From contig JAENZE010000002.1 of NCBI GenBank assembly GCA_016841425.1, forward strand, positions 62,001 to 126,000: a DNA stretch of 64,000 bases, given 5' to 3'. How positions within the stretch are numbered: the first letter of the stretch is position 1; every line of letters starts with the position of its first letter. Both the position numbers and the translations under genes were made by a program. The notes beneath the pieces are model-generated. The model saw nothing but the letters and a program-made list of their open reading frames with translations, was not told where the DNA came from and did no database searches. This DNA is from Syntrophomonas sp. (GTDB lineage Bacteria > Bacillota > Syntrophomonadia > Syntrophomonadales > Syntrophomonadaceae). Positions 3,619 to 27,338 of this stretch are shown piece by piece.

Positions 3619-4035
3619 TTGAAAAACGAAAAAGGACAGGTGTTAATCGAATTTGTTTTGTGCTTGATTATTCTGGCTTCATTTATATTTGGAATAATCG
3701 GAGTCACGACATGGGGAGTTGCCAGCCATTTTGCTCAAGAGGTGGCACATGAATCAGCCCGAAAGTATGCGGTTACTTACGATAAGTCGGAAGCAGAGAA
3801 GTTAGGCGAAACCTATTTAAAAAGATGGGCCTATATTTTTATTGATACTTCTCAAGTTGACGTAACCGTAAAAGCTCAAGGGACAAAAGCGGTATCAAGT
3901 GTAACAGTAAGACCAAAAGAATCTATGCAAATACTATTTGTGTTTACTATGCCGGAAATCAATAAAACATCGGAGGCAACCTTCGAGCATTATATTCGGA
4001 ATCCCAATGATTATGAAGGGGGTGTTGGAATTTAA
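3619..4035 (+). CDS. TadE-like pseudopilin, cluster 1
   Basis: The likely start is TTG 3619, six bases after GAGGTGA; an upstream GTG (3610) sits inside that site. The 138-residue product has a short basic N-terminus and then GQVLIEFVLCLIILASFIFG, a type IV pilin-like segment with the Glu five residues after the presumed Gly cut site. TadE-like proteins are minor pseudopilins of Tad/Flp pili, processed by the CpaA-type peptidase and placed in the inner membrane with a periplasmic or extracellular C-terminal domain. It opens cluster 1 and overlaps the next gene, so the two are probably translationally coupled. Confidence 0.7.
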   Translation: MKNEKGQVLIEFVLCLIILASFIFGIIGVTTWGVASHFAQEVAHESARKYAVTYDKSEAEKLGETYLKRWAYIFIDTSQVDVTVKAQGTKAVSSVTVRPKESMQILFVFTMPEINKTSEATFEHYIRNPNDYEGGVGI

Positions 4036-4438
4036 CAAGTTATTACGGTCAGAAAAAGGCTCCATAATGGTCGAAACGGTAGCTACTTGCTTAATACTGA
4101 CAATTATTATGTTGGGGTGTTTTGAAACCTTCAGTTTAATTAATAGCAAGCTGAAAATTCAAAGGATTGCCAGAGAAGGCGCCCGTGAAGCGGCTATAAA
4201 CTATAACGGAAATGGGCTTAATTTAGCCAAGGTCAAAGCAAGGGATATTGCTAATCAGTATCTTCCTAACACAAACCCCGATATTACCGTATATATTAAT
4301 AAGGTCAACGGGGAGGATGCAAACGTAGTATGCAGTGTATCCCTGGATTACAAATACGTGCAATATTTCAGAAAAGAAGGGATAGGAGGTAAGAAAATAA
4401 ATGCAACAGCGATATACCCGTGGGAAGACCAGACTTAA
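4022..4438 (+). CDS. second TadE/TadF-like pseudopilin, cluster 1
   Basis: GTG 4022 or TTG 4025 follows GAAGGGGG, overlapping the end of the previous gene. The product (about 138 residues) carries the pilin-like segment KGSIMVETVATCLILTIIML near residue 12, with Glu at the expected position, then an extracellular domain of about 100 residues containing IAREGAREAAI, a stretch typical of TadE/TadF proteins. It overlaps the downstream TadG-like gene by 38 bases. Together the three genes form the pseudopilin set of cluster 1. Confidence 0.65.
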   Translation: MLEFNKLLRSEKGSIMVETVATCLILTIIMLGCFETFSLINSKLKIQRIAREGAREAAINYNGNGLNLAKVKARDIANQYLPNTNPDITVYINKVNGEDANVVCSVSLDYKYVQYFRKEGIGGKKINATAIYPWEDQT

Positions 4439-5588
4439 AAACGAAGATGGTACTGTATTAGTAATAGCTGTATTTCTGGTAATGCTATTCGCAATCCTGT
4501 TTGCTGGTATGGTGCAGTTAGGGATATATTTATTAGCCCGTGACCAGCTCCAGACAGCCACAGATGCAGCGGCCCTAGCCGGGGCAAGTAGCGGAGCTGA
4601 AAGATATGTAACTATCAAAGTAGTAACCGATAAAGGGTCCAGGAGGGTTTGTCATACGGATTGCGATACAAGTGGTAATTGTAATACTGACTGTGGGTGT
4701 ACAAACTGTGGCCAAGCCGAATATACAGTTTCCGGATCTGAAAAAATGCTATTAGACGAAGAGGGATGGAAAGATTATTGCGTGCCTACATGTAGTGGTT
4801 GTGGGGGCGACAAAGGAGAATGCTGGTATGAATTAGAAGATAGAAATATGACATATGAAATTCAAAGTATGCAGGCAGGAATGTCGGATAACACCCTGGC
4901 TAAAGTTGAAGCCGATTTAATCGCTACAACCGTGTCTGTTATAGCAGAAACCGCAACTAATTACGCAGATGTCATTCATAATATGCTAGATGATTTATCT
5001 TTAACCCAAATATATAATTTATTGAAATCTGAGGATAAATTCCTACGAGCATGGCAGAGTGCTGAAGGATATTCGCCATATTGCCAATATGAATGCCCAT
5101 CTGGAAACTGTGATGAATGTTTCCGATGGAGCACAATTGGCAAAGAAGTTTTTGATATTGCAAAAACACATAAAGACATGGTAAATGACAGCATAAAAGC
5201 TATCAGTAGTATGCGTAATAGTCAAGGAGTTCCTGAGATAGACAAAAAATACACCGAGGCTGCTGGAAAATTTTTTGAAGCAAACCTGCCCAAAAACGCC
5301 AGTGATGCGGGAATACAGAAAATAACTGTATATAGCTATAATCCAAAATATAATTCACAAAATCAAAGCCCTTATTATCCTTCGGTAGTTGTATATGCAA
5401 CCGCAAAGATAAAAACTTTATTCCCGAGTTTATTCCCCAATGATCTGCAAACAACCGTCTGTGCATCGGGCGCAACATCATTCAGGGACTCTGCCGACCA
5501 GACAAAGAACGGTAATAAATTCTACGATGCCTTAACTGGCGGCAAATGGTATAAAGTGCCTGAAGATGGCTGTTGGGTGGATTGGTAA
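4401..5588 (+). CDS. TadG-like pilus protein with cysteine-rich insertion
   Basis: ATG 4401 follows AGGAGGT. The 395-residue protein has the N-terminal Tad transmembrane segment (VLVIAVFLVMLFAILFAGM, residues about 20-40) and then ARDQLQTATDAAALAGASS, the hallmark helix of TadG-type proteins. Residues about 83-146 hold ten cysteines in CxxxC, CxC and CxxC spacings, and a further four lie in a CxxxCxxxxCxxC patch around residue 230. That is unusual for TadG. Tad minor pilins face the outside, so these cysteines probably form disulfides. A VKOR/thioredoxin-like gene lies in the same cluster (8630-9385) and could oxidise them. Confidence 0.75.
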   Translation: MQQRYTRGKTRLKNEDGTVLVIAVFLVMLFAILFAGMVQLGIYLLARDQLQTATDAAALAGASSGAERYVTIKVVTDKGSRRVCHTDCDTSGNCNTDCGCTNCGQAEYTVSGSEKMLLDEEGWKDYCVPTCSGCGGDKGECWYELEDRNMTYEIQSMQAGMSDNTLAKVEADLIATTVSVIAETATNYADVIHNMLDDLSLTQIYNLLKSEDKFLRAWQSAEGYSPYCQYECPSGNCDECFRWSTIGKEVFDIAKTHKDMVNDSIKAISSMRNSQGVPEIDKKYTEAAGKFFEANLPKNASDAGIQKITVYSYNPKYNSQNQSPYYPSVVVYATAKIKTLFPSLFPNDLQTTVCASGATSFRDSADQTKNGNKFYDALTGGKWYKVPEDGCWVDW

Positions 5589-5589
5589 G

Positions 5590-5817
5590 ATGTTAGATGC
5601 AGAAAGAATTAACGGGTATTGTAATCTCAACGTTAGCCAAGCTGAAGTTTTCAGGGCGTTTTGGTACAACTTTCGAAATGGTTGGGAACCAGCTATTATT
5701 GTCCCTTGCAGGGTGAGTTATGTTCAAGACGAAGATTATCCCTATATAAGAGTTGATTTCACGATTAATGGTAGAAAGTCCTGGCTGCATGTATTGGGTT
5801 CAGAAACATGGTATTGA
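5590..5817 (+). CDS. small protein of unknown function
   Basis: A 75-residue product if started at ATG 5590, or 83 if started at ATG 5566 inside the end of the TadG-like gene; neither start has a convincing ribosome site. It is rich in aromatics (VFRAFWYNFRNGW), has no signal peptide and resembles nothing I know. The last gene before the terminator at 5843, it closes the first transcription unit of cluster 1. It contains one copy of the recurring octamer TGCAGGGT at 5707. Confidence 0.45.
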   Translation: MLDAERINGYCNLNVSQAEVFRAFWYNFRNGWEPAIIVPCRVSYVQDEDYPYIRVDFTINGRKSWLHVLGSETWY

Positions 5818-5842
5818 CAGCGGTATTCTTTAACTCATTGTA

Positions 5843-5868
5843 AGGCCCTCGCAAGAGGGTCTTTTTCT
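5843..5868 (+). terminator. rho-independent terminator
   Basis: A CCCTC-GCAA-GAGGG hairpin is followed by CTTTTTC. It ends the pseudopilin unit of cluster 1. Confidence 0.8.
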
Positions 5869-5890
5869 ATGGGCATTTTTGTTAAATATC

Positions 5891-5904
5891 ACTGTAAAAA
5901 CAGT
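5891..5904. promoter_or_regulatory. 14-bp palindrome, possible operator
   Basis: ACTGT-AAAA-ACAGT lies about 65 bases upstream of the TadC-like gene and just after a terminator, where a promoter for that gene should be. Symmetry and position suggest a protein site; no regulator is identified. Confidence 0.3.
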
Positions 5905-5966
5905 TATTTCGGACAAAAGAAAGGTGGTGCCATATCTAAAAAATCTAAAAGAAAGGAGACGGTTTT

Positions 5967-6758
5967 TTGAATACCTTAGCTTTAGCATCCGGGCTAATCG
6001 GAGTAGCAGTTGCTTTGCCAGTAGCAACAAGAAACATCCCGCAGTTAGACAAAAAGGAAGTATTTACCCGAACCGGCGTTCGACTATTAAGTGAAGAAGA
6101 TAAAAGCCTTCTTAGTCTGCAAATTAGCCGGGCAGGGTTGGATATCCAACCAGAATACTTCATGGGTTTAAAAGCAGGATTAACCAGCTTATATCTAGTC
6201 ACGGTAGTAGCATTATCGCTTATATCATCCTGGGTCTTAGTTTCAGCAGTATTGGCCCCAGCTATATACTTCCTGCCGGGGATTTGGTTAAAAGGCAAAA
6301 TACAGGCCCGAAAAACGGAGCTCAAAAAAAGACTCGATGATTTTGCTATGTATTTGTCTACAGCCTTAAACTCAGTACCAGACCTTGTGGACGCCTTAAA
6401 TGAAGCCGGCAAAGCTACCGGGGGAATATACGAGGAAGAAATCAATACTGTTCTTAAAGAAAATTCTTCGGGCAAGAATCTCATGGACGCCTTGGTGGAT
6501 ATGTCTATACGGACCGATATTGACGAATTAAATTCCTTAATATCCTCTATCAGCCAAATATATGTTCATGGAGCCAAAGCATCGGATAAGATGCAGGAGT
6601 TCGCTGATAAAATCCGGGAAGGCAAACGGTTTGACATTATGGATCAAGCTGGCAAGGTACAAATCAAGTTAATACTGGTTGTTTTGCTGTTTATATTGGT
6701 ACCAATATTGATGGTTATTGGTTATCCAGCTGCATACTCACTAATGCAAATCATGTAA
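5967..6758 (+). CDS. TadC-like inner-membrane platform protein, cluster 1
   Basis: TTG 5967 is spaced eight bases from AAAGGAG. The 263-residue protein has an N-terminal hydrophobic segment, a middle pair (about residues 70-105) and a C-terminal pair with LILVVLLFILVPILMVI, enclosing a cytoplasmic T2SSF-type domain (MYLSTALNSVPDLVDALNEA). This is the GspF/TadB/TadC platform family, which sits under the pilus and couples to the CpaF ATPase. Its TadB partner is probably at 12123-12950. The pair is split here, by about 5.4 kb that includes the IscB element. Confidence 0.75.
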   Translation: MNTLALASGLIGVAVALPVATRNIPQLDKKEVFTRTGVRLLSEEDKSLLSLQISRAGLDIQPEYFMGLKAGLTSLYLVTVVALSLISSWVLVSAVLAPAIYFLPGIWLKGKIQARKTELKKRLDDFAMYLSTALNSVPDLVDALNEAGKATGGIYEEEINTVLKENSSGKNLMDALVDMSIRTDIDELNSLISSISQIYVHGAKASDKMQEFADKIREGKRFDIMDQAGKVQIKLILVVLLFILVPILMVIGYPAAYSLMQIM

Positions 6759-6780
6759 AAAAATAAGGAGGAAAATTATT

Positions 6781-6975
6781 ATGATAAAAAATTTCAAAGC
6801 GTTTTTGAAGGACGAAAATGGACAGGGTATGGCTGAATACGGGCTTATAATCGCATTGATTGCTGTTGTATGTATTGCGGCCATGATATTCCTGGGCGGG
6901 TCGATCTCCGATAAATTCCAGTTAGTCGGCGAGGAAATTGATAGCGCCTCTCCTGGTGATGCCGGTGGTTTTTAA
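6781..6975 (+). CDS. flp: Flp major pilin, cluster 1
   Basis: This 64-residue pilin follows AAGGAGG. It has the classic Flp signature: a basic leader, ENG then QGMAEYGLIIALIAVV, with Glu and Tyr at positions 5 and 6 after the presumed Gly cut. Flp pilins are the main subunits of Tad pili and are cut by a CpaA/TadV-type peptidase (here probably 15730-16239). The mature chain would be about 50 residues, normal for the family. The acidic tail ends in SPGDAGGF. A hairpin 80 bases downstream probably ends the message. Confidence 0.9.
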   Translation: MIKNFKAFLKDENGQGMAEYGLIIALIAVVCIAAMIFLGGSISDKFQLVGEEIDSASPGDAGGF

Positions 6976-7052
6976 CTAAGTTCTGAAAGAAGTCCACCAT
7001 CTTCAACGCCACAGGGCGTAAGTGGGTGATTGGTCACCAATTGCTGCTAATG

Positions 7053-7082
7053 GCGAAAAGAAGGTTTTTAGCCTTCTTTTCG
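7053..7082 (+). terminator. strong hairpin after the Flp pilin gene
   Basis: GCGAAAAGAAGG and CCTTCTTTTCGC form a 12-bp stem with a short T/A loop. The U-rich end lies within the 3' arm, so it may work as a terminator or as a 3' end that stabilises the pilin message. Confidence 0.6.
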
Positions 7083-7111
7083 CTTACAAAACAAACAAAG
7101 GAGGTCAATAA

Positions 7112-7347
7112 CCCCCGCTTAAATGCTACCGCATTTTGAAGTGGGGGCTTGTAAAAGCCCTGATTGACTAGCCTAAGTGTTACACTACGTTACCCGCAAA
7201 TATATAGGCACCCTGGGATGCGAGTCCAAGTTCCAGGCTCTGCGGTCAGTGATTAAACAATTCTGAGGGGTAGGAACAGTGTTGCTGGCAAAAAACTGCG
7301 GGATAACATTGGCGATGGACAACTAACTCTGAAAGGAGGTAGGCTCG
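7112..7347 (+). ncRNA. IscB omega RNA (HEARO-type)
   Basis: This 236-base non-coding stretch directly precedes iscB, the standard place of its guide RNA. It starts with the left-end hairpin and contains GGCACCCTGGGAT ... AGTCC ... CTGCGG, then a GGGGTAGGAACA segment near the 3' end. I recall comparable conserved blocks from known IscB omega RNAs (the HEARO family). The guide would be the bases just 5' of the element (about 7085-7106, in the leader of the interrupted Tad gene). The exact RNA ends cannot be read by eye. Confidence 0.75.
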
Positions 7348-8601
7348 TTGGTAGTCTACGTTATTAACAAACATGGTAAACCATTAATGCCATGTAAACC
7401 AAGAAAAGCAAGAATATTGCTCAAGCAAGGCAAAGCCAAAGTCATCAACCGTGAACCATTTACGATACAACTTCTTTACGGTTCAAGCGGCTATAAACAA
7501 CCAATCTCATTTGGGGTAGATGCAGGAAGTAAGCATATCGGCTTATCTGCTACCACCGATAAAGAGACCCTGTTTGAAGGTGAGGTTGAAGTAAGAAGCG
7601 ATATTGTAGATCTGTTATCAACCAGGAGAGGATTTCGTAAAGGTAGACGGCATCGTAAAACCAGATATCGCCCAGCAAGATTCAACAATCGGGGAAAACC
7701 GAAAGGATGGTTAGCACCATCGATCGAGAACAAGATCGAGAATCATCTTAAAGTGATTGCTATGGTACATAAATTGCTTCCTATTTCAAAAACCATTATA
7801 GAGGTAGCCAGTTTTGATATTCAGAAGATCAATAATCCCGATATATCGGGCAAGGAATACCAGGAAGGCGATCAATTAGGTTTCTGGAATATTAGGGAAT
7901 ACGTACTGTGGAGAGATGGGCACAAATGCCATGGACGTAAAGGCTGCAAAAACAAAATCCTGAACGTCCATCACATAGAAAGCCGTAAAACTGGTGGGGA
8001 TTCTCCAAAGAACCTAATTGCCCTGTGCGAGAAATGTCATGCTGATTATCATGCTGGAAGATTGAAACTGAATCTAAAGCGAGGACAATCTTTCAAAGAT
8101 GCTGCATTTATGGGGATTATGCGATGGACAGTTTATAATCGGCTTAAAACACTTTATCCAAATGTAAGTCTAACCTATGGGTATCTCACTAAGAATACCA
8201 GAATAAGAAATGGCTTAGAAAAAAAACACACAGTAGATGCCAGATGTATTAGTGGAAATCCTTTAGCTAAACCAGATGATGTTTGCTATTACTTCAGGCA
8301 AGTGCGTAAACAGAACCGTCAACTACATAAAGCCAATACACTTAAAGGTGGTATCCGTAAAGCAAACAAAGCTCCTAAATATGTGCATGGATACCAGCTG
8401 TTTGACAAGGTACTATACAAAAACAAAGAATGTTTCATATTCGGTAGGAGGTCCAGTGGTTATTTTGACCTTCGTACCTTAGATGGTGTTAAGATTCATG
8501 CTTCTGCCAACTGTAAAAAGCTAAGGTTACTCGAAAGAGCAAAATCAATAATATGTGAAAGGAGGCAGGGCAATTCCTCCCCCACTTACGCTATCGCTTA
8601 G
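7348..8601 (+). CDS. iscB: RNA-guided nuclease IscB
   Basis: TTG 7348 is seven bases after AAGGAGGT. The 417-residue protein starts with the PLMP domain (HGKPLMPCKPRKARILLKQG), then RuvC-I (GVDAGSKHIGLS), an Arg-rich bridge helix (RRGFRKGRRHRKTRYR), RuvC-II (IIEVASFDIQKI), an HNH domain with zinc-like CxxxxxC/CxxC spacing (VHHIESRKTGGDSPKNLIAL) and RuvC-III (HTVDARCISG). All expected catalytic residues look present. IscB is the ancestor-type relative of Cas9 and cuts double-stranded DNA guided by its omega RNA. The reading frame ends (SPTYAIA) inside the right-end hairpin of the element. Confidence 0.93.
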   Translation: MVVYVINKHGKPLMPCKPRKARILLKQGKAKVINREPFTIQLLYGSSGYKQPISFGVDAGSKHIGLSATTDKETLFEGEVEVRSDIVDLLSTRRGFRKGRRHRKTRYRPARFNNRGKPKGWLAPSIENKIENHLKVIAMVHKLLPISKTIIEVASFDIQKINNPDISGKEYQEGDQLGFWNIREYVLWRDGHKCHGRKGCKNKILNVHHIESRKTGGDSPKNLIALCEKCHADYHAGRLKLNLKRGQSFKDAAFMGIMRWTVYNRLKTLYPNVSLTYGYLTKNTRIRNGLEKKHTVDARCISGNPLAKPDDVCYYFRQVRKQNRQLHKANTLKGGIRKANKAPKYVHGYQLFDKVLYKNKECFIFGRRSSGYFDLRTLDGVKIHASANCKKLRLLERAKSIICERRQGNSSPTYAIA

Positions 8602-8620
8602 AAGTGGGGGTCTCCTTGCC
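8568..8620. repeat. right-end hairpin of the IscB element
   Basis: GGGCAA pairs with TTGCCC outside a CCCCCACTT/AAGTGGGGG stem, forming a long interrupted hairpin. The iscB stop codon (8599-8601) is in its loop. It mirrors the left-end hairpin at 7112-7147. Confidence 0.75.
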
Positions 8621-8629
8621 CGCGTTTTG

Positions 8630-9385
8630 ATGAATATGGATAAACCAAAAAACTTATTAAAGAAACAACCATTTCAAAAGGAAGCTGTTGTAAACTCTCT
8701 TCTTTTTGTTTTGATAATATCAATACTCCTTTATGCGGATTTTGGTATATTGACTGGCCCAGGGATAATAGCGGCTTTATTGGGAATTTATTTCAGTTTA
8801 TCTCTGAGGCATCTATTCGTAGCCATGATAGGTGTGACTGCAGCTTCTGCTAGTTTCATAGGGCAATCAATGGTGGCGTACTGTCCTTATTGCACCATGG
8901 CAGCCATGTGCTTTCTTATTGCAGGGACAATCAGCCTAATGAAAATTGCTAGAAAATATACCCTTGTATCGCTGGTTTTATGCGGGATTATTATAGCTTC
9001 GGTTAGTGTGTTTACTATAAGTTTTACGGCTTATGCAGATCCCAGGGAGCCGGTTATTCAAAATAACCAGACTGCTGTAGTTGCCCCAAAATGCGATATA
9101 AGCAAACCAAAGTTGTATTTATCTACAACCTGTCCGTCATGCAAAGATGCCATGGCGGACTTTGTAAGAAAAGACCCGAAGGGTGAAAAATGGCTGCCTG
9201 TTATAGTGCCTCACAGTCATTTAGCCCAGGGTGAAAAAATGCTACAGGAATTAGGCTATCAAGGAGAAGTGGTATCCGCTTCATATCCACCCGGGAACCG
9301 ACTGCCAACTCTGGATGTCGAAGGAGAAATACTTGTAGGAAGTAAAATTCAGTATGAAAGAATCACAAAGGAGGAAATAAAATAA
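8630..9385 (+). CDS. VKOR/DsbB-like membrane protein with C-terminal thioredoxin-like CxxC domain
   Basis: The probable start is ATG 8630 (or 8636); the open frame extends into the IscB element, but those residues are not native. The 251-residue protein has four to five membrane segments, with CPYC inside the second half of the membrane domain (SMVAYCPYCTMAAMC), then a soluble domain with LYLSTTCPSCKDAMADF. This layout, redox-active membrane Cys plus a thioredoxin-like CxxC, is that of disulfide-forming VKOR/DsbB-type proteins fused to their partner. A natural client would be the Cys-rich TadG-like protein. There is no ribosome site next to the start; a good AAAGGAGGT now lies 1.5 kb upstream, across the insertion. 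Confidence 0.65.
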   Translation: MNMDKPKNLLKKQPFQKEAVVNSLLFVLIISILLYADFGILTGPGIIAALLGIYFSLSLRHLFVAMIGVTAASASFIGQSMVAYCPYCTMAAMCFLIAGTISLMKIARKYTLVSLVLCGIIIASVSVFTISFTAYADPREPVIQNNQTAVVAPKCDISKPKLYLSTTCPSCKDAMADFVRKDPKGEKWLPVIVPHSHLAQGEKMLQELGYQGEVVSASYPPGNRLPTLDVEGEILVGSKIQYERITKEEIK

Positions 9386-10048
9386 ATGGAACTGTTAAAG
9401 AAGAATTTACCGGTGGTTATCGCATTAATTATTGCAATAGTCGCAAGTGTCCTGATATATACGATTATTAAAGCCCAAACACCCAGTGTGCCAGTAGTGT
9501 ATGCCAACCAGATACTTCGAGTAGGGTTGACGATAACGCCCGAGCATTTAAGCGTGAAATATCTGCCGGCATCAGCGGTACCCAGCAATACTTTCAGAAG
9601 TGCAGATCAGGTAGTCGGCTCCACTATATATAATGGACCAGTAGTCAAAGATAACATCATTACATCTGATCATTTGAGCACTTATGGCTCACTAATGGCC
9701 ACTCTAAACACCTTTGCGCCCGAAGGATGGACTGCCGTAGAACTTCCTGGCGGTGGTGGAGCAGGAATGATTGGAATCAAACGAGGGGATTCGGTGGATA
9801 TATACGGAGAAGTAATGGCAGGGCAAGGGACTACAATAGGCAAGATATGTGGCGGTGCTATAGTTTTGAGTATGCCAAGCGAGAACAATAGTCAATTTGT
9901 CGTGGCAGTCCCTGATAATTATGCGCCAGCAGTAGCAGAATTAATTATCCGGGATAGATCAATGACGATCACCCTGCCCAACGGCCAACCGGTAATTGAG
10001 GTAGCCGAAATAAACGAGGAAGCAATTACAGAAACGGGGGGTGAATAA
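9386..10048 (+). CDS. CpaB/RcpC-like pilus assembly protein, cluster 1
   Basis: ATG 9386 follows AAGGAGG at the very end of the previous gene. The 220-residue product has one N-terminal membrane anchor (VVIALIIAIVASVLIYTII) followed by a SAF domain (YANQILRVGLTITPEHL; NGPVVKDNIITSDHLS), the core of CpaB/RcpC. These proteins occupy the periplasm or outer face and help form the Tad secretion channel. The family average is about 250-300 residues, so this one is compact. A second CpaB occurs at 16253. Confidence 0.75.
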   Translation: MELLKKNLPVVIALIIAIVASVLIYTIIKAQTPSVPVVYANQILRVGLTITPEHLSVKYLPASAVPSNTFRSADQVVGSTIYNGPVVKDNIITSDHLSTYGSLMATLNTFAPEGWTAVELPGGGGAGMIGIKRGDSVDIYGEVMAGQGTTIGKICGGAIVLSMPSENNSQFVVAVPDNYAPAVAELIIRDRSMTITLPNGQPVIEVAEINEEAITETGGE

Positions 10049-10052
10049 ATCA

Positions 10053-10799
10053 ATGGAATTAACATTTCCAACTACACCAAGAGAGGCAGGAAGAGGGATT
10101 TTAATCTCTTTCCTGCCTTTGAGGGCAGGGGCAGGAGCAGCTACATTGGCTTGCATGACCGGGTTGATAGCCTGTAAACATTATGATACATCGATCATTG
10201 ATTTAAACCAGGACTCCAAGGTGCGTTCTTATCTGGGCTTTCAGGATTTAAGTTCATCGACCGTTTCTATACTGGATATAAACGGGGTTGCCACACCCGA
10301 AGGCATATTCTCTGCCAGTGAGCAGCACCATTCCGGCCTAAAGGTTTTCCCGGGAGTAAGTCCGAGGGTATTAGATGCTTCGCAGATAGATACACAGTTA
10401 ATGTTAAAAGCAGTGACGTATTTAAAGAAAACCAGCCCCCTTACTACAGCAGTAATAAACCCACTGTATTCATCCTGGATGGCTGCTATGTTATCAGATC
10501 TGGTATGTCTGGTAGTTAAACCTGACCGACCTAATATGGATGCCTTCAGAGAGACTACGGATTTTCTAACTCGTTTAGGTTGCTCTGACCGCTTAAAAAT
10601 CATTTTAAATCAAAACGGTTATGTAGGCAGCTTAGAAAGTAAAGGGGCTATTAATTACTTCTCACCGGATATAGTGATTGGATATGATAAGTCCATCTCA
10701 GAAATGTGTAATCGCAGGGTTTTGGATCCCAGCAAGAATATCCGGTCGGAGTTATTTTCATTAGTAAAAGAGGTGATAACGGATGCAGAATGGTCTTGA
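10053..10799 (+). CDS. CpaE/TadZ-like protein with degenerate P-loop
   Basis: ATG 10053 lies eight bases after GGGGGGTGA; a GTG at 10041 overlaps that site. The 248-residue protein has the size and order of a MinD/ParA-family ATPase: a glycine-rich loop near residue 27 (PLRAGAGAATLACMTGLI), then a switch-like IIDLNQDSKVRSYLGF. The Walker A Lys-Thr is missing. CpaE/TadZ proteins place the Tad machine in the cell. It lies between cpaB and the ATPase gene, the usual cpaE place, and overlaps the latter by 17 bases. A degenerate P-loop suggests a structural rather than ATP-hydrolysing role. Confidence 0.6.
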   Translation: MELTFPTTPREAGRGILISFLPLRAGAGAATLACMTGLIACKHYDTSIIDLNQDSKVRSYLGFQDLSSSTVSILDINGVATPEGIFSASEQHHSGLKVFPGVSPRVLDASQIDTQLMLKAVTYLKKTSPLTTAVINPLYSSWMAAMLSDLVCLVVKPDRPNMDAFRETTDFLTRLGCSDRLKIILNQNGYVGSLESKGAINYFSPDIVIGYDKSISEMCNRRVLDPSKNIRSELFSLVKEVITDAEWS

Positions 10800-12950: not shown

Positions 12951-12962
12951 GGAGGAATTTAT

Positions 12963-14045: not shown

Positions 14046-14053
14046 GATAATAG

Positions 14054-14082
14054 TTGCAAATTGTATCTGAAAAAGTTATTAT
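14054..14082 (+). promoter_or_regulatory. sigma-A-type promoter for cluster 2
   Basis: TTGCAA, a 17-base spacer, then TATTAT. It lies just after the last cluster 1 gene and about 150 bases before the first cluster 2 gene; a terminator falls in between. Confidence 0.5.
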
Positions 14083-16239: not shown

Positions 16240-16252
16240 AAGGAGAATATAA

Positions 16253-18272: not shown

Positions 18273-18276
18273 TAAT

Positions 18277-19116: not shown

Positions 19117-19125
19117 GAGGGCATT

Positions 19126-19905
19126 ATGTCATATAAAATTTTATGGATAGCTGGCATTCTAACAGCCACAATACCGGTTTTTTATTTGCTTATAAATACT
19201 ACGATAAGTTTTGCTGCAGACAAATATGCCAATTTTACACTTTATCGGTCCTTTGGTAGAAGGGACACCAAATTAGAATTTAACCGTTCAATAATAGATA
19301 AAACGGTAATAACCTGGGCAATAATAGGGGCATTATTAGGAGTCATCTTAACATGGGGTTCAAATAGTCTGGTTTTGGGTGCACTTATATGCGGGTTCTG
19401 GGCAGGAGTAAGTGTTATTGGATTCAGAGAATATCACCGGAGAAAAACTAAAAGTATTCGGTATCAGGAATGTCTGGAATTGTTTAGGCTGGTTGAAAAC
19501 TATATGCAGTTAGGTATGCCTTTGCAACTTGCCTTAACCGAAGCAAAAGAAATACTGGTGGTCTTAAAACCAGCCGTAAATAAGGCATTGGCGTATTGGG
19601 GCATGGGGTCTGAAACCGCGTTAAGGGTACTACGGGTAGAAATTGATCTGCCCGAAGCTGAATCGCTTGTCATGTTATTGAGCCAAGTTAATAACAGTGG
19701 GATTAAGAACTTCGACAACATCATTAAAATGGAGGCGGATAGGCTTGAAGATATTCGAGAAGCCGCCGAACAGATGCAAATATCGATAAAGCCTTTGATA
19801 TTAATCTTGTATCGTGTTCTTCCGCTTTTAGCAATATTAGGAATGGTGGCTGGTGTAATGTTTACCAGGACCATGACAATAATCAAAGACGCAGGACTTA
19901 TGTAA
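19126..19905 (+). CDS. TadC-like platform protein, cluster 2
   Basis: ATG 19126 follows AGGAGGGC. In 259 residues there is an N-terminal helix (IAGILTATIPVFYLLIN), a middle hydrophobic pair, the T2SSF-like domain (CLELFRLVENYMQLGMPLQLAL; LLSQVNNSGIKNFDNII) and a final membrane pair. It completes the cluster 2 platform. The 127 bases downstream, before the first pilin, hold the pilin leader with a strong AGGAGGT; no terminator is obvious there. Confidence 0.72.
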   Translation: MSYKILWIAGILTATIPVFYLLINTTISFAADKYANFTLYRSFGRRDTKLEFNRSIIDKTVITWAIIGALLGVILTWGSNSLVLGALICGFWAGVSVIGFREYHRRKTKSIRYQECLELFRLVENYMQLGMPLQLALTEAKEILVVLKPAVNKALAYWGMGSETALRVLRVEIDLPEAESLVMLLSQVNNSGIKNFDNIIKMEADRLEDIREAAEQMQISIKPLILILYRVLPLLAILGMVAGVMFTRTMTIIKDAGLM

Positions 19906-20032
19906 GAGAGGGGAGGGTAGAATTACACAAAACAAAATTTCTAATACAAACCGTAGACTACCTTTGCTAATAGAGGAGAAATCATAGTTATCATAGCGAT
20001 CAGTTAAAAAATAAAACAGGAGGTAAAATTTC

Positions 20033-20248
20033 ATGAATCTATTTCGAAAGGCAAAAAAGGTACTCAACAATGAACGTGGAGCATACGGGGCAGTAGAACT
20101 AATGGCAATTGTAGCAGTAGTAATTGTAGTTTCATTGGCCGTAACCGGCAAACTATCTGATAGCGATAGCGGGTTGCCAAACGCAGCGGATACAGCAGTT
20201 GGTACTATTAACGCTCAGATATTGGATGCCACCGGCGCATCAGATTAA
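20033..20248 (+). CDS. Flp-like pilin, cluster 2
   Basis: ATG 20033 follows AGGAGGT. The 71-residue protein has a basic leader ending NERGA, then YGAVELMAIVAVVIVVSLAV. If the peptidase cuts after Ala, the Glu falls at position 5 as in Flp pilins; cutting after Gly would put it at 6. The tail is short and acidic. It is followed by a strong terminator, fitting a highly expressed major pilin. It differs from the cluster 1 pilin in lacking the Glu-Tyr pair. Confidence 0.65.
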   Translation: MNLFRKAKKVLNNERGAYGAVELMAIVAVVIVVSLAVTGKLSDSDSGLPNAADTAVGTINAQILDATGASD

Positions 20249-20262
20249 ATAACACTGAGTAA

Positions 20263-20297
20263 AAGCCAGGCCATTCATAAGTGGTCTGGCTTTTTTT
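20263..20297 (+). terminator. rho-independent terminator after pilin
   Basis: AGCCAGGCCA and TGGTCTGGCT arms are followed by seven T. Partial readthrough would allow a high pilin to minor-pilin ratio. Confidence 0.85.
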
Positions 20298-20312
20298 GTG
20301 GAGGTGAATAAA

Positions 20313-20489
20313 ATGTTTCACATATTAAAAAACGAGACCGGGGCTGCTATGAGTGTTGAATTACTAGTAGTTGTAGCTTGCGTTGTAACACTCGGAATCG
20401 TCATTGCGGCTAAACTTACCGATATTCTGCAGGGTTTCCATGGCAATATAAAAGAGAATATAACTGAAGTGACGGGGAGTGGTTATTAA
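20313..20489 (+). CDS. Flp-like pilin with TGAAMSVELL motif
   Basis: ATG 20313 is spaced from GAGGTGA; the in-frame GTG at 20298 precedes that site. The 58-residue product is HILKNETGAAMSVELLVVVA near its start, followed by a hydrophobic helix and a short tail. It shares the exact TGAAMSVELL stretch with the next gene. The length is that of a Flp pilin, so it may be an alternative or minor major-type pilin of cluster 2. Confidence 0.65.
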   Translation: MFHILKNETGAAMSVELLVVVACVVTLGIVIAAKLTDILQGFHGNIKENITEVTGSGY

Positions 20490-20978
20490 ATGCGTAAAAT
20501 ACATACACAAACTGGGGCTGCTATGAGCGTTGAATTGTTGATAGTAATGGCTATAATTTGCTTTCTAATCTTTGGTGGTCAGGATTACTGGTTGGCGCAA
20601 ATAAAGATACAACAAACTGAGCACATCAAGAATTATTACTTGGATCGTATGCGTTTAGAGGGATGTTTAACCCAAGATGATGCTCAAAACATGGTCGATG
20701 CCTTATACAACAATAAAATGATTTTAACTAAACTTGAAGCCCCGTTGGAAAATTCTTTTTCAATTAGTGAGGTTGATATGTCGGGATGTCTGGTCGGCAG
20801 AGTGGTTAGGAACACTAATATCCCAGAATTAGAGGATATTACTCAATCAGAAGTCTACTTGCGTATTGAGGTGGAAACGGAAGGATACGGATTCCCTTTT
20901 ATTGCATTAATTGGGTATGACAATTCAGAAAAACTGACAATACAATCATCGGGGAGGGCTTTAAGTGAAAAGGTTTAA
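20490..20978 (+). CDS. TadE-like pseudopilin, cluster 2
   Basis: ATG 20490 directly follows the stop of the previous pilin. The 162-residue protein begins with the same QTGAAMSVELLIVMA processing segment, but continues with an extracellular domain of about 130 residues containing two Cys (GCLTQ; SGCLVG) that could pair. It overlaps the next gene by 14 bases. The shared N-terminus indicates processing by the same peptidase. Confidence 0.6.
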   Translation: MRKIHTQTGAAMSVELLIVMAIICFLIFGGQDYWLAQIKIQQTEHIKNYYLDRMRLEGCLTQDDAQNMVDALYNNKMILTKLEAPLENSFSISEVDMSGCLVGRVVRNTNIPELEDITQSEVYLRIEVETEGYGFPFIALIGYDNSEKLTIQSSGRALSEKV

Positions 20979-21567
20979 GAACGAAAGGGGTTCTATTGTC
21001 TCCGTTTTAATATTACTCACTATTCCGGTGTTTATATGGGCAATTCTAATCAATCTGGATCATTCCAGTGCAATAGGTAGCTCCGATATTAATTTGCAAC
21101 AAGCAGTAACCCAGGGTGTAAGAGCAGGGACTATGTGTGTAAATAAAACCTCACAGGCTTATAACGAACCCTTAGTAGAAGCAGATACAGCGCATATGGT
21201 CTTTAGACAAATAATAGCACGAAATCTAGGGCTGGATTTAATAACTCTGGAACCGCTCGAAAAGTCGGGTATAGAAACTACACCAGAGTATACGTTTATT
21301 GTGTATAACGGTACAGACAATTCATATGGAGCAATACCGGCAATTAAGTACAGTAATTATGATCAAGACGGTACGCTGATTGCATATAACGGATTCCCAC
21401 AAGACTTTGCTATTTATACTGATGATATAGTTTTGGGCAGCAGCGACTTAACAACTACCCTGGATAGCCCCGGGTGCGTTGCTGTAGTAAAAGTCACGGT
21501 ACCTAATATTGGACCGGGTGAAGCTGAAACCGTAAGGTGGGCAGCAGCGAAAATATTTGATAAGTAA
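20965..21567 (+). CDS. TadG/pseudopilin-like protein, cluster 2
   Basis: GTG 20965 follows GGGAGGGC. A short basic leader (KRFKNERG) and a membrane segment (SIVSVLILLTIPVFIWAILI) precede an extracellular domain of about 165 residues. NLQQAVTQGVRAGTMCV resembles the helix after the membrane segment in TadE/TadG proteins, but there is no Glu at position 5, so it is either uncut or atypical. It belongs to the pilin block by position and overlap. Confidence 0.5.
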   Translation: MKRFKNERGSIVSVLILLTIPVFIWAILINLDHSSAIGSSDINLQQAVTQGVRAGTMCVNKTSQAYNEPLVEADTAHMVFRQIIARNLGLDLITLEPLEKSGIETTPEYTFIVYNGTDNSYGAIPAIKYSNYDQDGTLIAYNGFPQDFAIYTDDIVLGSSDLTTTLDSPGCVAVVKVTVPNIGPGEAETVRWAAAKIFDK

Positions 21568-21579
21568 GGGGGACTTAAC

Positions 21580-22269
21580 ATCAAAAAACAAAAGTATTTA
21601 CTAATCTTCATTATATTGATGGTCGGTGCTATGTTGTATATCGGAATCGGCTTCACTTATGACAAAAATGGGATCCAAAACTGCGCCAATAAATACTTCA
21701 TGGCATTATGCTCTAATGACATTAAACAAGCCAAAGAACAAGTGACTGGGCAAGCACTCTGGTCACTTAGTAATATCCAAGAACTACCCCAAGCTACTAT
21801 CGAAAAAACAAGCATAACAATTTCAGCCGGAAATAAAAAATGGGCCAGGGTGAATGCTGTAATCGAAATAAGATTGAATGATGGAACTATTGATGTTGGC
21901 TGGTACGATATTGATTTAATCAATACTGAACAAGGCTGGAAGATATTTAACATCAGAACTCAAGTGCCTGAAGCTGACCACAGCTTGATTTCAAACAACG
22001 ATATAGAAGAACCTAGAAAGGTTTTTGAAGAATATTTAAAAACCACATCGGTAGAATGTTTGGTGGGATCTGCACGAACCGCCCAGGAGCAAAACCAAGT
22101 TAAATTAGTACCTATAGAATACAAAGATTTAGAAATGGCGCCACTGGGCGGTAATAAGAAATACAAGGTTTTAAAGGCATCGTATTTTACTGATCGAGCA
22201 GTTAATCTGTGTGTTGTTTTCTATAAAAGTGTGGACGGTTGGAAAATCATAAATATCCAGCAAATTTAA
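21580..22269 (+). CDS. membrane-anchored extracytoplasmic protein, apparent ATC start
   Basis: The first ATG (21616) falls inside a hydrophobic segment and lacks a ribosome site. Twelve codons upstream, AAGGGGGA is followed at normal spacing by ATC 21580, giving a sensible signal anchor: KKQKYLLIFIILMVGAMLYIG. About 229 residues result. The outer part contains two similar NTF2/DUF-like repeats ending GWKIFNIRTQ and GWKIINIQQ. Likely a cell-surface component of cluster 2. The AUC start is inferred; a sequencing error at ATG is possible. Confidence 0.55.
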   Translation: MKKQKYLLIFIILMVGAMLYIGIGFTYDKNGIQNCANKYFMALCSNDIKQAKEQVTGQALWSLSNIQELPQATIEKTSITISAGNKKWARVNAVIEIRLNDGTIDVGWYDIDLINTEQGWKIFNIRTQVPEADHSLISNNDIEEPRKVFEEYLKTTSVECLVGSARTAQEQNQVKLVPIEYKDLEMAPLGGNKKYKVLKASYFTDRAVNLCVVFYKSVDGWKIINIQQI

Positions 22270-22281
22270 GGGGGGTTGGCA

Positions 22282-24432
22282 TTGAGGAAAGGGTTAATAG
22301 CCCTGGGGGTATTATTTTTTATAATCATACTGGCACGAAACGCCTATGCCGATGATTATAAACATTATATAACCCCAGCGGATACACCAATTTATATAGA
22401 TACAGCGAGTACGACTGCTAAAGTGGATACCGATATTCATGAGATAACCTTGCCGGAGTATTACCCTGGCAAGGCTATAGCTTTTACCGGAATGGGTTAT
22501 GACTATATAGTTATGACCCCCTCAGAGGTAAAACATTTTTCGTTTGATGGTACTGAAATGATTGAAAACTCCTTTTTATCAGTATCTGGTATAAGCAACC
22601 CGGTTGCAATCGCTGCATCAACTTACCCAGATGTGGTTGTTGCTGACAGTGAAACAGTAACACATTATTCTTATGCTACGGAAATGGTTGCCAACCCCTT
22701 CCTTACTATTAATGGGCTGAACAATATTATAAGCATAGGCACCAGAGATTATGGTAAGGCTGTATTGTCCGGAGAAACACTTAATTACTATATATATGAT
22801 GGCTCTGAAATGATGCAAATACCGGCTTTATCATTGAACGGGTTTTCTAATCCGTTAGATTTGGCATTAAATAGCGATAATTATGATTGTATAGTGCTGG
22901 AACCTGACCAAGCCAAATACTATGGTTTTACCGGCTCGGAGCTTATTGCAAACCCGATATTAAGTATTACTGGATTAAGTGACCCGAAATCGGTAGCAAC
23001 CGATGATGGGAACATTACTATTATCGAAGGTACGGAACTTAAACGGTATGTATTAGATAGTGGCGACTTAACTTATACTAGCGCATTATCAGTAACTTCA
23101 GGGTTAAATAATCCCACTTCTGTTGCTATGCGGGCCGGAACACACGATTTACTGATCGCTGATGGCCAGGATATTAAATATTATATGTTCGATGGAACGG
23201 AAATGATTTATAACGAGGCTTTATCGGTACAAGTAGCAGAAATGGTTACGACAGGTTTATACAGAAAGAGTGCGGTGGTACAGTCATTAACAATCGACCC
23301 GGGGGAACCGGTAAGTTTTCTCCGATTAAGAGCTTATCACATATTACCGCCACAAACTAAGGTCACATGGTATGTGACAGCAAACGGTATAGATTGGACA
23401 GCTTGTTGGCGGGTCAGTGGAACGATGGCTGGCTCAGTTGCTGAGATAACCGAAGATAATGGGGCTACCTGGACCGTATTAGGTGATGCTGGGGAAGTTA
23501 ATCCTTTATCCAATAACCCTAGTTTATGGGTAGAAGTTGAAGAAGGCGAAGAAGTTAAATGGCGAGCTGAACTGGAAACAGAGGACCCTAACGTAACACC
23601 GAAAATAAAAGCACCTAACCCGGGTATAGACCCTGCGATAGTGTTGAATGTAAATCACAAGCCAGAGCCGCCAATTTTGGATATACCGATAGGCTGTTAT
23701 TTAACTACAACGCCACGGTTTGAATGGAAATATGTTGATGTTGATGATGACGCTCAGAGTGCTTATCAGGTTGTGATCAAAAAGCTGGATGGCACAGTGA
23801 TACATGATACCGGCAAAATATTATCAAATAATGAGTATTACGATATGGTTACGAGCGAAGACCCGGTACAACCTGGACCTTTTTGGGAGTCGGGAGTAAG
23901 CGACTTTATTTTAGAAGTTAAGGTGTGGGATGCTTGCGGTTTAGAATCTGATTGGGCATCGGGAGAGTTTTGCATTTTAGCGATGGAACGTTTACGGGTA
24001 AAAGAGATTGTATCCGCACCCGATGAACAGGTTTTACCCGATCCTGACGATCCAGCGACTCATATTATGATTAATCCAGGGGCAACAATTAATAATTTGC
24101 CCGTGGCTAAAGCTGGAACCAAAATAACTGTTTTAGTGGATATCGTAAGTAATGGTTGGAGTTTAAATGCTGTATTTCCGTATCTCGAAACAACAGCCAC
24201 ATTAGAAGGGCCTCCAACCTGTGTATCTACAGCTGGTACTAATAGAAGATACGAGGTTACGTTCTGGACCGAAGCATCGACCGAAGAAGTGCCAGATGGT
24301 ACGGTAGTAAAAACAAATTTAGTCGATAGTGCAGGTGCAACCCTAGCAACGCCGCCATATGCTGATGGCGTGGTAATAATATCAGATACAATGTACAGCG
24401 AGTGGATCGTAGTGTTGCAAGGTAGATCATAA
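22282..24432 (+). CDS. large secreted repeat/Ig-like protein, candidate pilus tip adhesin
   Basis: TTG 22282 lies six bases after GGGGGG and gives RKGLIALGVLFFIIILARNA as a signal peptide ending near AYAD; the TTG at 22276 is less likely. The 716 residues contain at least five repeats of about 47 residues (residues about 65-310), each with a Y..FDGTEMI.NP.LS..GL.NP pattern, suggesting a beta-propeller. The C-terminal 350 residues look like Ig/fibronectin-type domains (PPILDIPIGCYLTTTPRFEW). There is no sortase signal. Its position after the pilin genes suggests a pilus-associated adhesin; that is inference. Confidence 0.6.
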   Translation: MRKGLIALGVLFFIIILARNAYADDYKHYITPADTPIYIDTASTTAKVDTDIHEITLPEYYPGKAIAFTGMGYDYIVMTPSEVKHFSFDGTEMIENSFLSVSGISNPVAIAASTYPDVVVADSETVTHYSYATEMVANPFLTINGLNNIISIGTRDYGKAVLSGETLNYYIYDGSEMMQIPALSLNGFSNPLDLALNSDNYDCIVLEPDQAKYYGFTGSELIANPILSITGLSDPKSVATDDGNITIIEGTELKRYVLDSGDLTYTSALSVTSGLNNPTSVAMRAGTHDLLIADGQDIKYYMFDGTEMIYNEALSVQVAEMVTTGLYRKSAVVQSLTIDPGEPVSFLRLRAYHILPPQTKVTWYVTANGIDWTACWRVSGTMAGSVAEITEDNGATWTVLGDAGEVNPLSNNPSLWVEVEEGEEVKWRAELETEDPNVTPKIKAPNPGIDPAIVLNVNHKPEPPILDIPIGCYLTTTPRFEWKYVDVDDDAQSAYQVVIKKLDGTVIHDTGKILSNNEYYDMVTSEDPVQPGPFWESGVSDFILEVKVWDACGLESDWASGEFCILAMERLRVKEIVSAPDEQVLPDPDDPATHIMINPGATINNLPVAKAGTKITVLVDIVSNGWSLNAVFPYLETTATLEGPPTCVSTAGTNRRYEVTFWTEASTEEVPDGTVVKTNLVDSAGATLATPPYADGVVIISDTMYSEWIVVLQGRS

Positions 24433-24485
24433 TAAACAATTTAAAGGGAGTCTTTATGAAAAAGAGAATTAAGGAGGGTCTTTCA

Positions 24486-27338
24486 ATGGATAGTTATAAT
24501 ATTAAGTCAACATTAAAAGAAGTTTTTGCAAAAAGTTTTATTATTTTATGTATTAGCATAGTGTTCATCCTGGGTTTTAATATCTCTAAAGCTAATGCAA
24601 TAACTTACTTATCTAAACCAGATTGGCCTAATATGGGAAATGATATTTATGCTGCAGTTATCGATGTAGATGGCAATGTATGGGCAGGTGGAGAAGGAGG
24701 ATATGTAGCATATTGGAATGGAACCACATGGACAAATGACAGTAATCCTACATCAAGTCATATAAGAGATATGAGTTTAGGTTCAGACGGTAAAGTTTGG
24801 TTTGCAGGATATTATGATGGGGAATATGTCCAGAGTTCATATACAGGATATTGGGATGGTTCATCTTGGATTACACAAAGTCACGGCAGTAATTTTGTAT
24901 ATTCTATCACAACTGGAATAGACGGTAAAATATGGATAGCAGGCAAAAACGGTTTAATAAAATATTGGAATGGCAGTAGTTGGGTATCGTTTACTTCCCC
25001 AACTACAAGTACCATAACACGTATAACAACAAGTCCCGATGGCAGATTGTGGATAGGTGACTCAGATGGTTATGTTTATTATTATAATGGCTCAAATTGG
25101 ACTGCAACGGGAAGGGTATTTGGTTCCATTTATTATGATATAGAAAAAATGGTAGCAGATAGTAATAATAATATATGGGTAATCACCTCTACTAATAGCA
25201 CTATGTCTTATTGGAACGGGAATGAATGGACAAACTATGGTAGATTTAGTAAAGGCGATATAACTATAGGTAATGAAGGTAAAATATGGAATTATCATAG
25301 TGACGGGGCTGATTATTTTAATGGAGAAGAATGGATAGAAACAGATTTTGCATGGCCTTACAGTAGTAATTCTCTAAATACTGCCGTTACTTTAGATAAT
25401 GGTAGAATATTTGTATTGGGTGAAAATGGTAAATGTGCTTATGTTAGAACAAATAATTCATTAAATCTAGTAGAAAGTAACAATGGAGCAACAGGAGAAT
25501 TTATAATTAATCCGGTAATATCATCCTTATCAGGGTTGTTATATCCATTGCAGTATTCTACTAATGGCACCGATTTTAGTGATTTAGGGATACCTAATAA
25601 TGGCACCATAAGTTTAAGTCCGACTACTAATACAGCTTATATAAGAGCAACTTTAAAACGTGAACTAAGAAAGGGAGTATTTGAAGAGTTCTATTCTAGT
25701 GTAGTAACTATAAATCCTATATTAAATTTTGATACTAATATTCAATCAGAAGCAGTAACTTGGAGCAATACTCAAGGTAAATCCAATATTACTATATCAT
25801 GGGATGCAGTAACAAACGCAGACGGATATAGATTATGGATATTTGATGGAAATGAATATAAAAGTTGCGACTTAGGCAATGTATTATCTTGGAATAGCAG
25901 TGATGCTATGATATTTCCATTTCCAGGAGAATTACCTGAAGATAATAGTATATCTACCGATTTATTTAGGTGGGATGGCTCAGGTGTAGAATTTGATGAT
26001 AAACCGAGTTCCCTTTTTAAGTCAACTATTGGCACCAGTTATGATAGTGATACTAAATATAGGTTTAAAGTTACGGCCTATAATGATTGGATGGAGACAA
26101 AACATTTATATCAAACTAGTAGAGTAGAATTAGCGCAAGCCACAGATAAAACTAATCCCTCAGCTATTTTAGATATAATAACGGCCGAGGGTTTAGAAAA
26201 GACAGCATCAAGAGATGTGATTTTATCGCTAGAAGTAACGGATGCAGGTTCGGGTGTAAAAAATGTTGGAGTATCCAATGACGGAGTTTCTTATTCAAAT
26301 GTATATGAAGAAGGACTATTGCCTGACAATTCAACTGGAGTATATTCGTATATAGACAATGTAGATTGGACACTAACAGCGGGGGCAGGCACCAAAACAG
26401 TTTATATAAAAGTTATTGATGCAGTAGAAAATGAAATTATAATATCAAAACAGGTAGCATTAGCTGATGATATTGTACCACCAGACGTTACTATAACCAT
26501 AAATAATGGGGCAGAATCAACCACAAATGCATTAGTAGATTTATATATTGATGCTTTTGATAGCAGTTCAACCGAAGATAAACTTAAAATGAGGTTCAGT
26601 AACGATGGAAGTCTATGGTCAGTATGGGAATCTTATTCCATAGACAAAGTTTGGGATATAAATAATGTTGCTTATGGAGGAAATTCTGATGTAGGTATAA
26701 AAACAGTCTATATACAAATAGCAGATGCAGCCCAAAATATTAGTTTTGCCAGAGATACAATAGGTTATAACGATACACTACCTGCAGGCAATATAACTAT
26801 TATTGGTGGTAATATAGGTACTTTTAATGGAATAGATGCCTTATATTGCAAAACTAATAGTCCTACTTTATTACTAGATTATCCAACAGCAACGTCAATA
26901 AGAATAGACAAAGGATTAGGAATATGGGGTGAATGGGAAACATATAGTGCCAATTATCCTGTGTACCTGTTATCTAGTAGCGGAGGTTGTTTAATAAGAG
27001 TACAGGTTAAAGATGTCTATGGGGTAGCTGGCGACGCTGATCATTATGTACTAGTAATAGATACCCAAAGCCCAGTAATAACATCATTAAAAGGCCAAAA
27101 CGGAGCAACAGTTACGTCTTCAAGTACCATGAATCTTAGTATAGAATACTCTGACAATATGGCTGATTTAACCTATAGTTATAATGTTAATGAAGGAGAT
27201 TGGAGCGTAGCAGAAACGCTGAGCGGTAACACAATTACTGTTTCGGGCCTATCCGCAGGAGCAAATACTATTAATGTTAAAGCGATTGATAAAGCGGGAA
27301 ATACCACTGAGAAATCGTTAGTCATTTTTATGCTTTAA
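24486..27338 (+). CDS. large secreted propeller protein with Ig-like domains
   Basis: ATG 24486 follows AAGGAGGGTC; a second ATG at 24456 with its own AAAGGGAG would add ten residues. Residues 1-38 are a signal peptide (SFIILCISIVFILGFNISKANA). Residues about 45-330 hold repeats of YWNG..W with (D/E)GK.W(I/F)AG, a Reg_prop-like beta-propeller. From about 340 follow Ig/bacterial adhesion domains with repeated DTQSPVIT-, DKTNPSA- and VYIKV-type strands. The gene is visibly more AT-rich than its neighbours, suggesting separate acquisition. It is probably the second surface adhesin of cluster 2. Confidence 0.6.
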   Translation: MDSYNIKSTLKEVFAKSFIILCISIVFILGFNISKANAITYLSKPDWPNMGNDIYAAVIDVDGNVWAGGEGGYVAYWNGTTWTNDSNPTSSHIRDMSLGSDGKVWFAGYYDGEYVQSSYTGYWDGSSWITQSHGSNFVYSITTGIDGKIWIAGKNGLIKYWNGSSWVSFTSPTTSTITRITTSPDGRLWIGDSDGYVYYYNGSNWTATGRVFGSIYYDIEKMVADSNNNIWVITSTNSTMSYWNGNEWTNYGRFSKGDITIGNEGKIWNYHSDGADYFNGEEWIETDFAWPYSSNSLNTAVTLDNGRIFVLGENGKCAYVRTNNSLNLVESNNGATGEFIINPVISSLSGLLYPLQYSTNGTDFSDLGIPNNGTISLSPTTNTAYIRATLKRELRKGVFEEFYSSVVTINPILNFDTNIQSEAVTWSNTQGKSNITISWDAVTNADGYRLWIFDGNEYKSCDLGNVLSWNSSDAMIFPFPGELPEDNSISTDLFRWDGSGVEFDDKPSSLFKSTIGTSYDSDTKYRFKVTAYNDWMETKHLYQTSRVELAQATDKTNPSAILDIITAEGLEKTASRDVILSLEVTDAGSGVKNVGVSNDGVSYSNVYEEGLLPDNSTGVYSYIDNVDWTLTAGAGTKTVYIKVIDAVENEIIISKQVALADDIVPPDVTITINNGAESTTNALVDLYIDAFDSSSTEDKLKMRFSNDGSLWSVWESYSIDKVWDINNVAYGGNSDVGIKTVYIQIADAAQNISFARDTIGYNDTLPAGNITIIGGNIGTFNGIDALYCKTNSPTLLLDYPTATSIRIDKGLGIWGEWETYSANYPVYLLSSSGGCLIRVQVKDVYGVAGDADHYVLVIDTQSPVITSLKGQNGATVTSSSTMNLSIEYSDNMADLTYSYNVNEGDWSVAETLSGNTITVSGLSAGANTINVKAIDKAGNTTEKSLVIFML

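Follow-up and report, generated by a model that had tools for sequence, protein, structure and literature searches.

The window analysed here is a 64,000-nucleotide stretch of a Syntrophomonas sp. genome (GCA_016841425.1, 27 contigs), corresponding to C3:62001-126000, where C3 is contig JAENZE010000002.1. At positions 3619-27338 it encodes two Tad/Flp pilus systems, all genes lying on one strand, within a mobile element that splits the sporulation gene sigK. Judged from gene content and order, this twin block belongs to the backbone of conjugation-type elements, of which one settled in sigK, and is not a random cargo of a sigK-intervening (skin) element. It is probably the surface-pilus module of a large conjugation-type element (at least ~150 kb) placed in sigK by a serine recombinase.

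A split sigK gene and the extent of the element

The two halves of sigK lie on separate contigs. The N-terminal half is found at C22:89168-89536 and ends at codons matching the C-terminal half, which occupies window positions 40840-41238 (C3:102840-103238; forward strand, like all window features below; Sigma70_r4). Together the halves make one SigK that matches the intact proteins of the same-genus genomes G020 and G021 at 93-94%. A large serine recombinase gene (39329-40840; PF00239, PF07508 and PF13408, that is, Resolvase, Recombinase and Zn ribbon) adjoins the C-terminal half at the end of the element. At least 32 of the 63 genomes of the order, G020 and G021 among them, have an uninterrupted sigK. 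In genome G018, orthologues of C22:85-89k lie to the left of sigK, which is interrupted by a contig break, and the rest of the gene has orthologues of C3:106k onward to its right; G021 carries an orthologue from C3:103.5k beside its intact sigK. Since same-genus genomes combine an intact sigK with matching left and right flanks, the DNA between the two halves is an insertion.

As read from the translations, mobile-element DNA extends from C22:~89.5k to the end of that contig (136,628) and from C3:1 to ~102.9k, which places the right end of the element at ~40894 in the window. The element measures ~150 kb if C22 and C3 abut and more if further contigs lie between them. To the right of sigK, the genes read as those of a normal chromosome (galT, aro genes, type IV pilus genes, efp and spoIIIA). 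The sigK-intervening location given in a preliminary description of the window is therefore accurate in that the block sits inside a sigK-splitting element, but the window itself holds only the C-terminal half of sigK, and the element is far larger than the window suggests. Because known sigK elements behave in this way, the recombinase would be expected to excise the element in the mother cell at sporulation, restoring sigK, with the spore keeping the element. Genomes G040 and G042 each carry an intact sigK plus a second N-terminal sigK half (~24 kb away in G042), a possible trace of past insertion or duplication.

The twin block on other elements

An element-type CpaF-A, the CpaF of the first pilus set (~60% identity), occurs in 3 of the 63 genomes of the order. 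Two relatives from the same family, Syntrophomonas palmitatica JCM 14374 (G043) and the metagenome-assembled genome (MAG) Syntrophomonas sp. DTU019 (G014), carry the twin block with its gene order unchanged, at ~23-62% identity. In S. palmitatica sigK is split as well, a recombinase 55% identical to that of the window lies at the same place before the C-terminal half, and the replication genes are of a similar kind. In DTU019 sigK is intact, and an element of ~120 kb with its own VirB4, VirB6 and M23 genes resides elsewhere. As read, its neighbours are chromosomal genes, among them a spoIIR-like gene to one side and, to the other, a patatin-like gene followed by veg-like and ksgA-like genes. 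This DTU019 element (within C1:520001-700000 of that genome) also encodes a DnaE-like PHP-domain polymerase, and its closeness to the spoIIR-like gene raises the possibility that another sporulation-linked site is used.

A fourth copy of the twin block was found on L055, a MAG contig binned as WWE3, an assignment suspected to be a binning error. Among 398 sampled genomes of the phylum, five more have CpaF-A relatives at 45-50%. In the more distant Bacillota genome G230 the twin block is complete and includes both adhesins, and a single contig of G191 holds two CpaF genes together with VirB4-, VirB6- and M23-like genes. Viral contigs contained no CpaF-A relative. A search for the same block on other elements, proposed in the preliminary description, thus recovered it in order in S. 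palmitatica, DTU019, L055 and G230. The accompanying idea of an unusual pilus cargo private to a skin element was not supported by this comparison: as the order is conserved on other elements and the DTU019 copy lies outside sigK, the block is part of the backbone and not skin-specific cargo.

Gene organization of the two pilus sets

The block was examined gene by gene with Pfam. Set A (3619-12950) begins with two TadE genes (3619-4035 and 4007-4438) and a TadG-like gene (4401-5588), whose products score above Pfam cut-off (PF07811 and PF13400) and whose order is kept in S. palmitatica, DTU019, L055, G230 and G191. These are followed by a TadC-like platform protein (5967-6758; T2SSF, 6.4e-11), a Flp pilin (6781-6975; Flp_Fap, 6.8e-11), a membrane protein (8630-9385) and CpaB (9386-10048; SAF domain above cut-off), the last two in an order conserved in other elements. 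A conserved CpaE-like protein without a Pfam match (10053-10799), the CpaF ATPase (10783-12141; PF00437, 9.5e-41, 140 bits; 60-62% identical in DTU019 and S. palmitatica) and TadB (12123-12950; PF00482, 8.4e-07) complete the set.

Between the sets lie two CpaE/receiver/ParA-like genes conserved in DTU019, S. palmitatica, L055 and G230, the first (12963-14045) without a Pfam match and the second (14237-15298) with AAA_31/CbiA above cut-off, and a CpaA/TadV-type A24 prepilin peptidase gene (15730-16239; PF01478, 2e-19). This is the only prepilin peptidase gene within the block; the two sets share it, together with two large secreted proteins. With this common peptidase, set A has the CpaF, TadB/TadC, Flp and A24 components of a Tad/Flp (type IVc) system, all above Pfam cut-offs.

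Set B (16253-21567) starts with CpaB (16253-16948; RcpC below cut-off), CpaF (16941-18272; T2SSE, 2.1e-21, 76 bits), TadB (18277-19116; T2SSF just below cut-off) and TadC (19126-19905; no Pfam match, with counterparts 34-44% identical at the equivalent position of other elements), a run that has syntenic homologues at 27-49%. Two small pilin-like proteins come next, one recognised by position and sequence (20033-20248) and the other by a weak Flp1_like match (20313-20489), and then TadE-like (20490-20978) and TadG-like (20965-21567) proteins identified by syntenic homologues in S. palmitatica, DTU019 and G230. CpaF is thus the component of set B above its cut-off; CpaB and TadB fall below theirs, and TadC, Flp and TadE/G are assigned by synteny and homologues. 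NCBIfam provided no name for the small set B proteins.

Behind set B, a conserved protein (21619-22269) with syntenic homologues in S. palmitatica, DTU019 and G230 precedes two large surface proteins (Pfam Ig_Rha78A_N and Reg_prop). One combines propeller and immunoglobulin (Ig)-like domains (22276-24432) and has homologues in the same three genomes; the other is propeller/PKD-like (24486-27338), with a homologue in G230. A confident all-beta propeller is predicted at residues 66-323 of the former, for which a fold search returned generic propeller matches only.

The two CpaF proteins are only ~27% alike (a CpaF-B query matched at the CpaF-A place of genome G278), so the twin sets are not a recent tandem copy, and recent duplication of one Tad set was rejected as an origin. 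The predicted proteins give two Tad systems that diverged anciently, set A being complete and set B probably so. The inventory of two Tad clusters in the preliminary description is borne out by Pfam and syntenic homologues, with several set B parts below cut-off. That account had included neither the secretion genes outside the window, described below, nor an insertion within set A.

This insertion breaks set A between flp and the next gene and consists of a HEARO omega-RNA (7104-7327; RF02033, 143 bits) and an IscB nuclease gene (7348-8601; RRXRR and HNH domains). In L055 the corresponding gap runs only from the end of flp (7911) to the start of its neighbour (7931), and S. palmitatica and DTU019 lack the insertion there as well. 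Another IscB-like gene is located at C22:101564-102883.

Conjugation and replication genes

Upstream of the window on the same element, C3:36390-44445 encodes a Gram-positive type IV secretion system (T4SS) made up of a TrbC-like protein (below cut-off), a T4SS pilin, PrgI, a VirB4-type ATPase, a protein assigned as VirB6-like by membrane topology and position, and an SLT + M23 wall hydrolase. The window adds a TraG/VirD4-type coupling ATPase (33074-34888; PF02534, PF12696 and PF10412), a ParM-like actin and HU, and the C22 part adds NAD ligase, thymidine kinase, the DNA polymerase beta clamp, single-stranded DNA-binding protein, anaerobic ribonucleotide reductase and a DnaD-like replication protein. 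Integrase, T4SS and coupling protein, as expected of an integrative and conjugative element (ICE), are therefore all present on one element.

A prophage was considered and rejected, since the matches to PHROGs are non-structural: 52 element proteins matched 62 families, and the 25 best of these comprise replication, metabolism and unknown functions, with no head, tail or packaging family among them. Phage structural genes were likewise not recognised when translations of the element DNA were read. In gene content the element matches an integrated conjugative plasmid or ICE and not a prophage.

Linkage to TraG and VirB4 on plasmids

The TraG protein of the element matches 63 plasmids; almost all are large and from Bacillota, and 60 of the 63 are typed as non-mobilizable. 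VirB4 matches 60 plasmids, and 43 records are common to the two proteins among the 60 matches listed for each. Of 17 plasmids chosen by TraG alone, 14 carry T2SSE (a CpaF-type ATPase) above the Pfam cut-off, against one of seven control Bacillota plasmids, which are on average smaller (pLS20 being the positive one; one-sided Fisher p ~0.004, calculated by hand). T2SSF beside the CpaF-type ATPase, or an annotated CpaB, was present in 11 of the TraG-chosen plasmids. Host-matched controls sought by neighbouring accession numbers mostly do not exist in the plasmid collection. The co-occurrence with the TraG-like gene that the preliminary description had suggested looking for is thus apparent on plasmids, and the linkage between TraG and Tad genes can be called strong but not strict.

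Bacillota plasmids also carry looser forms of the twin block. Two CpaF/Tad sets are present on pMU3262, on pB6464 (chosen by CpaF), on an Aneurinibacillus plasmid and on a Priestia koreensis plasmid. On the Aneurinibacillus plasmid (NZ_CP116888.1, 346-370 kb) the two sets are near-identical, with identical T2SSF scores 20 kb apart, and likely reflect a recent duplication. The 136-kb Clostridioides plasmid pESS17301a carries Tad genes ~10 kb from VirB4 and PrgI, with VirB6 and ParM close by.

Proposed role and alternative explanations

The pili probably help the element to move between cells, and their likeliest role is to draw donor and recipient cells together. In this model, a serine recombinase would put an integrated plasmid or ICE-like element into sigK, and the two CpaF motors would extend two kinds of Flp pili, matured by the one peptidase. 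The propeller and Ig-like proteins could act as adhesins at the pilus tips or alongside. The filaments would then catch a recipient and hold it, and the T4SS and coupling ATPase would pass the DNA. The preliminary description had raised the idea that the pili work with TraG as a DNA-transfer apparatus; the T4SS on the same element and the linkage of TraG, VirB4 and Tad genes on Bacillota plasmids favour it, while its alternative of attachment pili stays the main rival. A broader proposal, towards which we are a little more sceptical than favourable, is that widespread giant conjugative elements and plasmids of Bacillota use twin Tad pili as a mating apparatus next to a T4SS, and that in those members residing in sigK the pilus and transfer genes are cut from the mother cell and inherited only via the spore.

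Several observations weigh against the proposed conjugative role. The element spans two contigs whose joint has no sequence. A clear CpaF is absent from three of the 17 TraG plasmids, and this TraG from some Bacillota plasmids with Tad genes; the control plasmids are few and were examined for T2SSE only. No recognised relaxase family was found among the element proteins scanned, which represent part of the element genes, and no oriT was found, although no search was aimed at it. A replication-relaxation-like protein without an NCBIfam name (32052-33113) resembles replication-relaxation proteins from related plasmids only in its N-terminal, winged-helix-like part (hhalign, 91% probability, 140 columns), and its predicted structure is of low confidence except for a helix-strand region near residues 8-92.

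Adhesion is the best-known function of Tad pili, and the block might encode ordinary attachment or aggregation pili, a cargo benefiting the host on surfaces or with syntrophic partners, through which the element would gain without needing them for transfer. The beta-propeller and Ig-like surface proteins at the end of the block would suit this role; the host also has a chromosomal CpaF-type gene (C10:3147-4208), so Tad pili are normal in the family, and Flp pili of Cutibacterium acnes plasmids were interpreted as colonisation factors (PMC5696575). However, cargo usually varies among relatives, whereas the order of this block is kept despite identities of ~23-62% and recurs on TraG/VirB4 plasmids, and a host with its own Tad locus needs two more the less. 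We regard this explanation as rather unlikely. It is improbable that the filaments bind or take up DNA for the host of the element: flp pili are described as required for transformation of Micrococcus luteus (PMC6370729; PMC5696575), but no comEA/comEC-like genes were noticed in the block, and the T4SS and coupling ATPase suggest export instead.

The location of the block is open to two other readings. An assembly or binning artefact could have linked unrelated DNA to sigK, whose halves do lie on two contigs, but this is very improbable given that the recombinase and the C-terminal half are contiguous with the block on a 358-kb contig and that a split sigK, with an orthologous recombinase and comparable replication genes, is independently present in S. 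palmitatica. Still less credible is an ancestral chromosomal block upstream of sigK, which the preliminary description had named as the finding that would overturn it. Tad-type CpaF is frequent in chromosomes of the order (25 of 63 genomes, E <= 1e-60), but the rarity of the element-type CpaF and the intact sigK genes with the same flanks (matching C22:85-89k and C3:103k onward) led to rejection of this reading.

Descriptions of Gram-positive conjugation usually include no long mating pili. If the proposed mating role holds, a conserved twin Tad module with a T4SS and TraG would equip conjugation in Bacillota with an organ for cell contact that can be tested, and could account for transfer by large plasmids labelled non-mobilizable by typing tools. 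The range of elements that split sporulation genes, phage remnants and small islands, would also grow to include conjugation-type elements, tying gene transfer to a developmental switch.

Relation to known systems

Elements that split sporulation genes are known as prophage-like or, in the case of the gin element in gerE, as islands without phage genes (28.6 kb for gin; PMC5595907); the yin element resides in yabG (PMC10747680). The Syntrophomonas element resembles gin, yin and the skin elements of Bacillus and Clostridia in splitting a sporulation gene, in bearing a serine recombinase at one end and in having relatives with the intact gene. It differs from them in its size (at least 150 kb) and in its T4SS, coupling ATPase, replication genes and twin Tad pili.

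The plasmid pMU3262 of Thermoanaerobacterium shares with the element two Tad sets, a Cu-amine-oxidase-N protein, an S1 protein, an HD protein, ParM, HU, dnaN and ssb, as well as a TraM-recognition ATPase, replication-relaxation proteins and VirB4. Unlike the element, it is a free circular plasmid, its coupling ATPase is 28% identical and its modules are ordered differently. A linear C. acnes plasmid likewise has its tad locus beside conjugation-type genes (VirB4-, FtsK- and TcpC-like), and a conjugative nature was proposed for it (PMC5696575); it is, however, actinobacterial and ~53 kb long, with a tad locus described instead of twin sets, and is not inserted into a sporulation gene. Gram-positive ICEs with a PrgI/VirB4/VirB6/NlpC-type T4SS are similar in T4SS gene content and coupling ATPase, but the Syntrophomonas element is much larger and has its own DNA replication set and Tad pili, with no recognised relaxase among the proteins scanned. 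A literature search, with subscription papers outside its coverage, brought up neither a conjugation-type element in sigK nor a description of twin Tad pili with a T4SS in Bacillota.

Neighbouring genes and other cargo

The block is headed by two secreted proteins, one with a copper-amine-oxidase N-terminal domain (956-1789; PF07833, 3.9e-36) and one large (1865-3289). Counterparts stand before the Tad block in L055 (49%) and are also present in DTU019 (74% over 155 residues), and a similar gene lies beside plasmid Tad genes. Downstream, 27605-29206 encodes an HD-domain protein and the ParM-like actin of plasmid partition (PF13487 and PF17989); the ParM-like gene follows the Tad block in S. 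palmitatica and DTU019 too (45%).

Elsewhere on the element, C3:10430-21723 carries a Druantia-type defence system (DruB, DruC, DruD and DruE) with a PD-(D/E)XK nuclease, and C3:51569-55493 a Gabija pair, GajA/GajB. Near the end of C22, an agr-like cluster comprising an AgrB-like protein, a sensor kinase and a LytTR-type regulator was read from the translations (C22:133678-136198).

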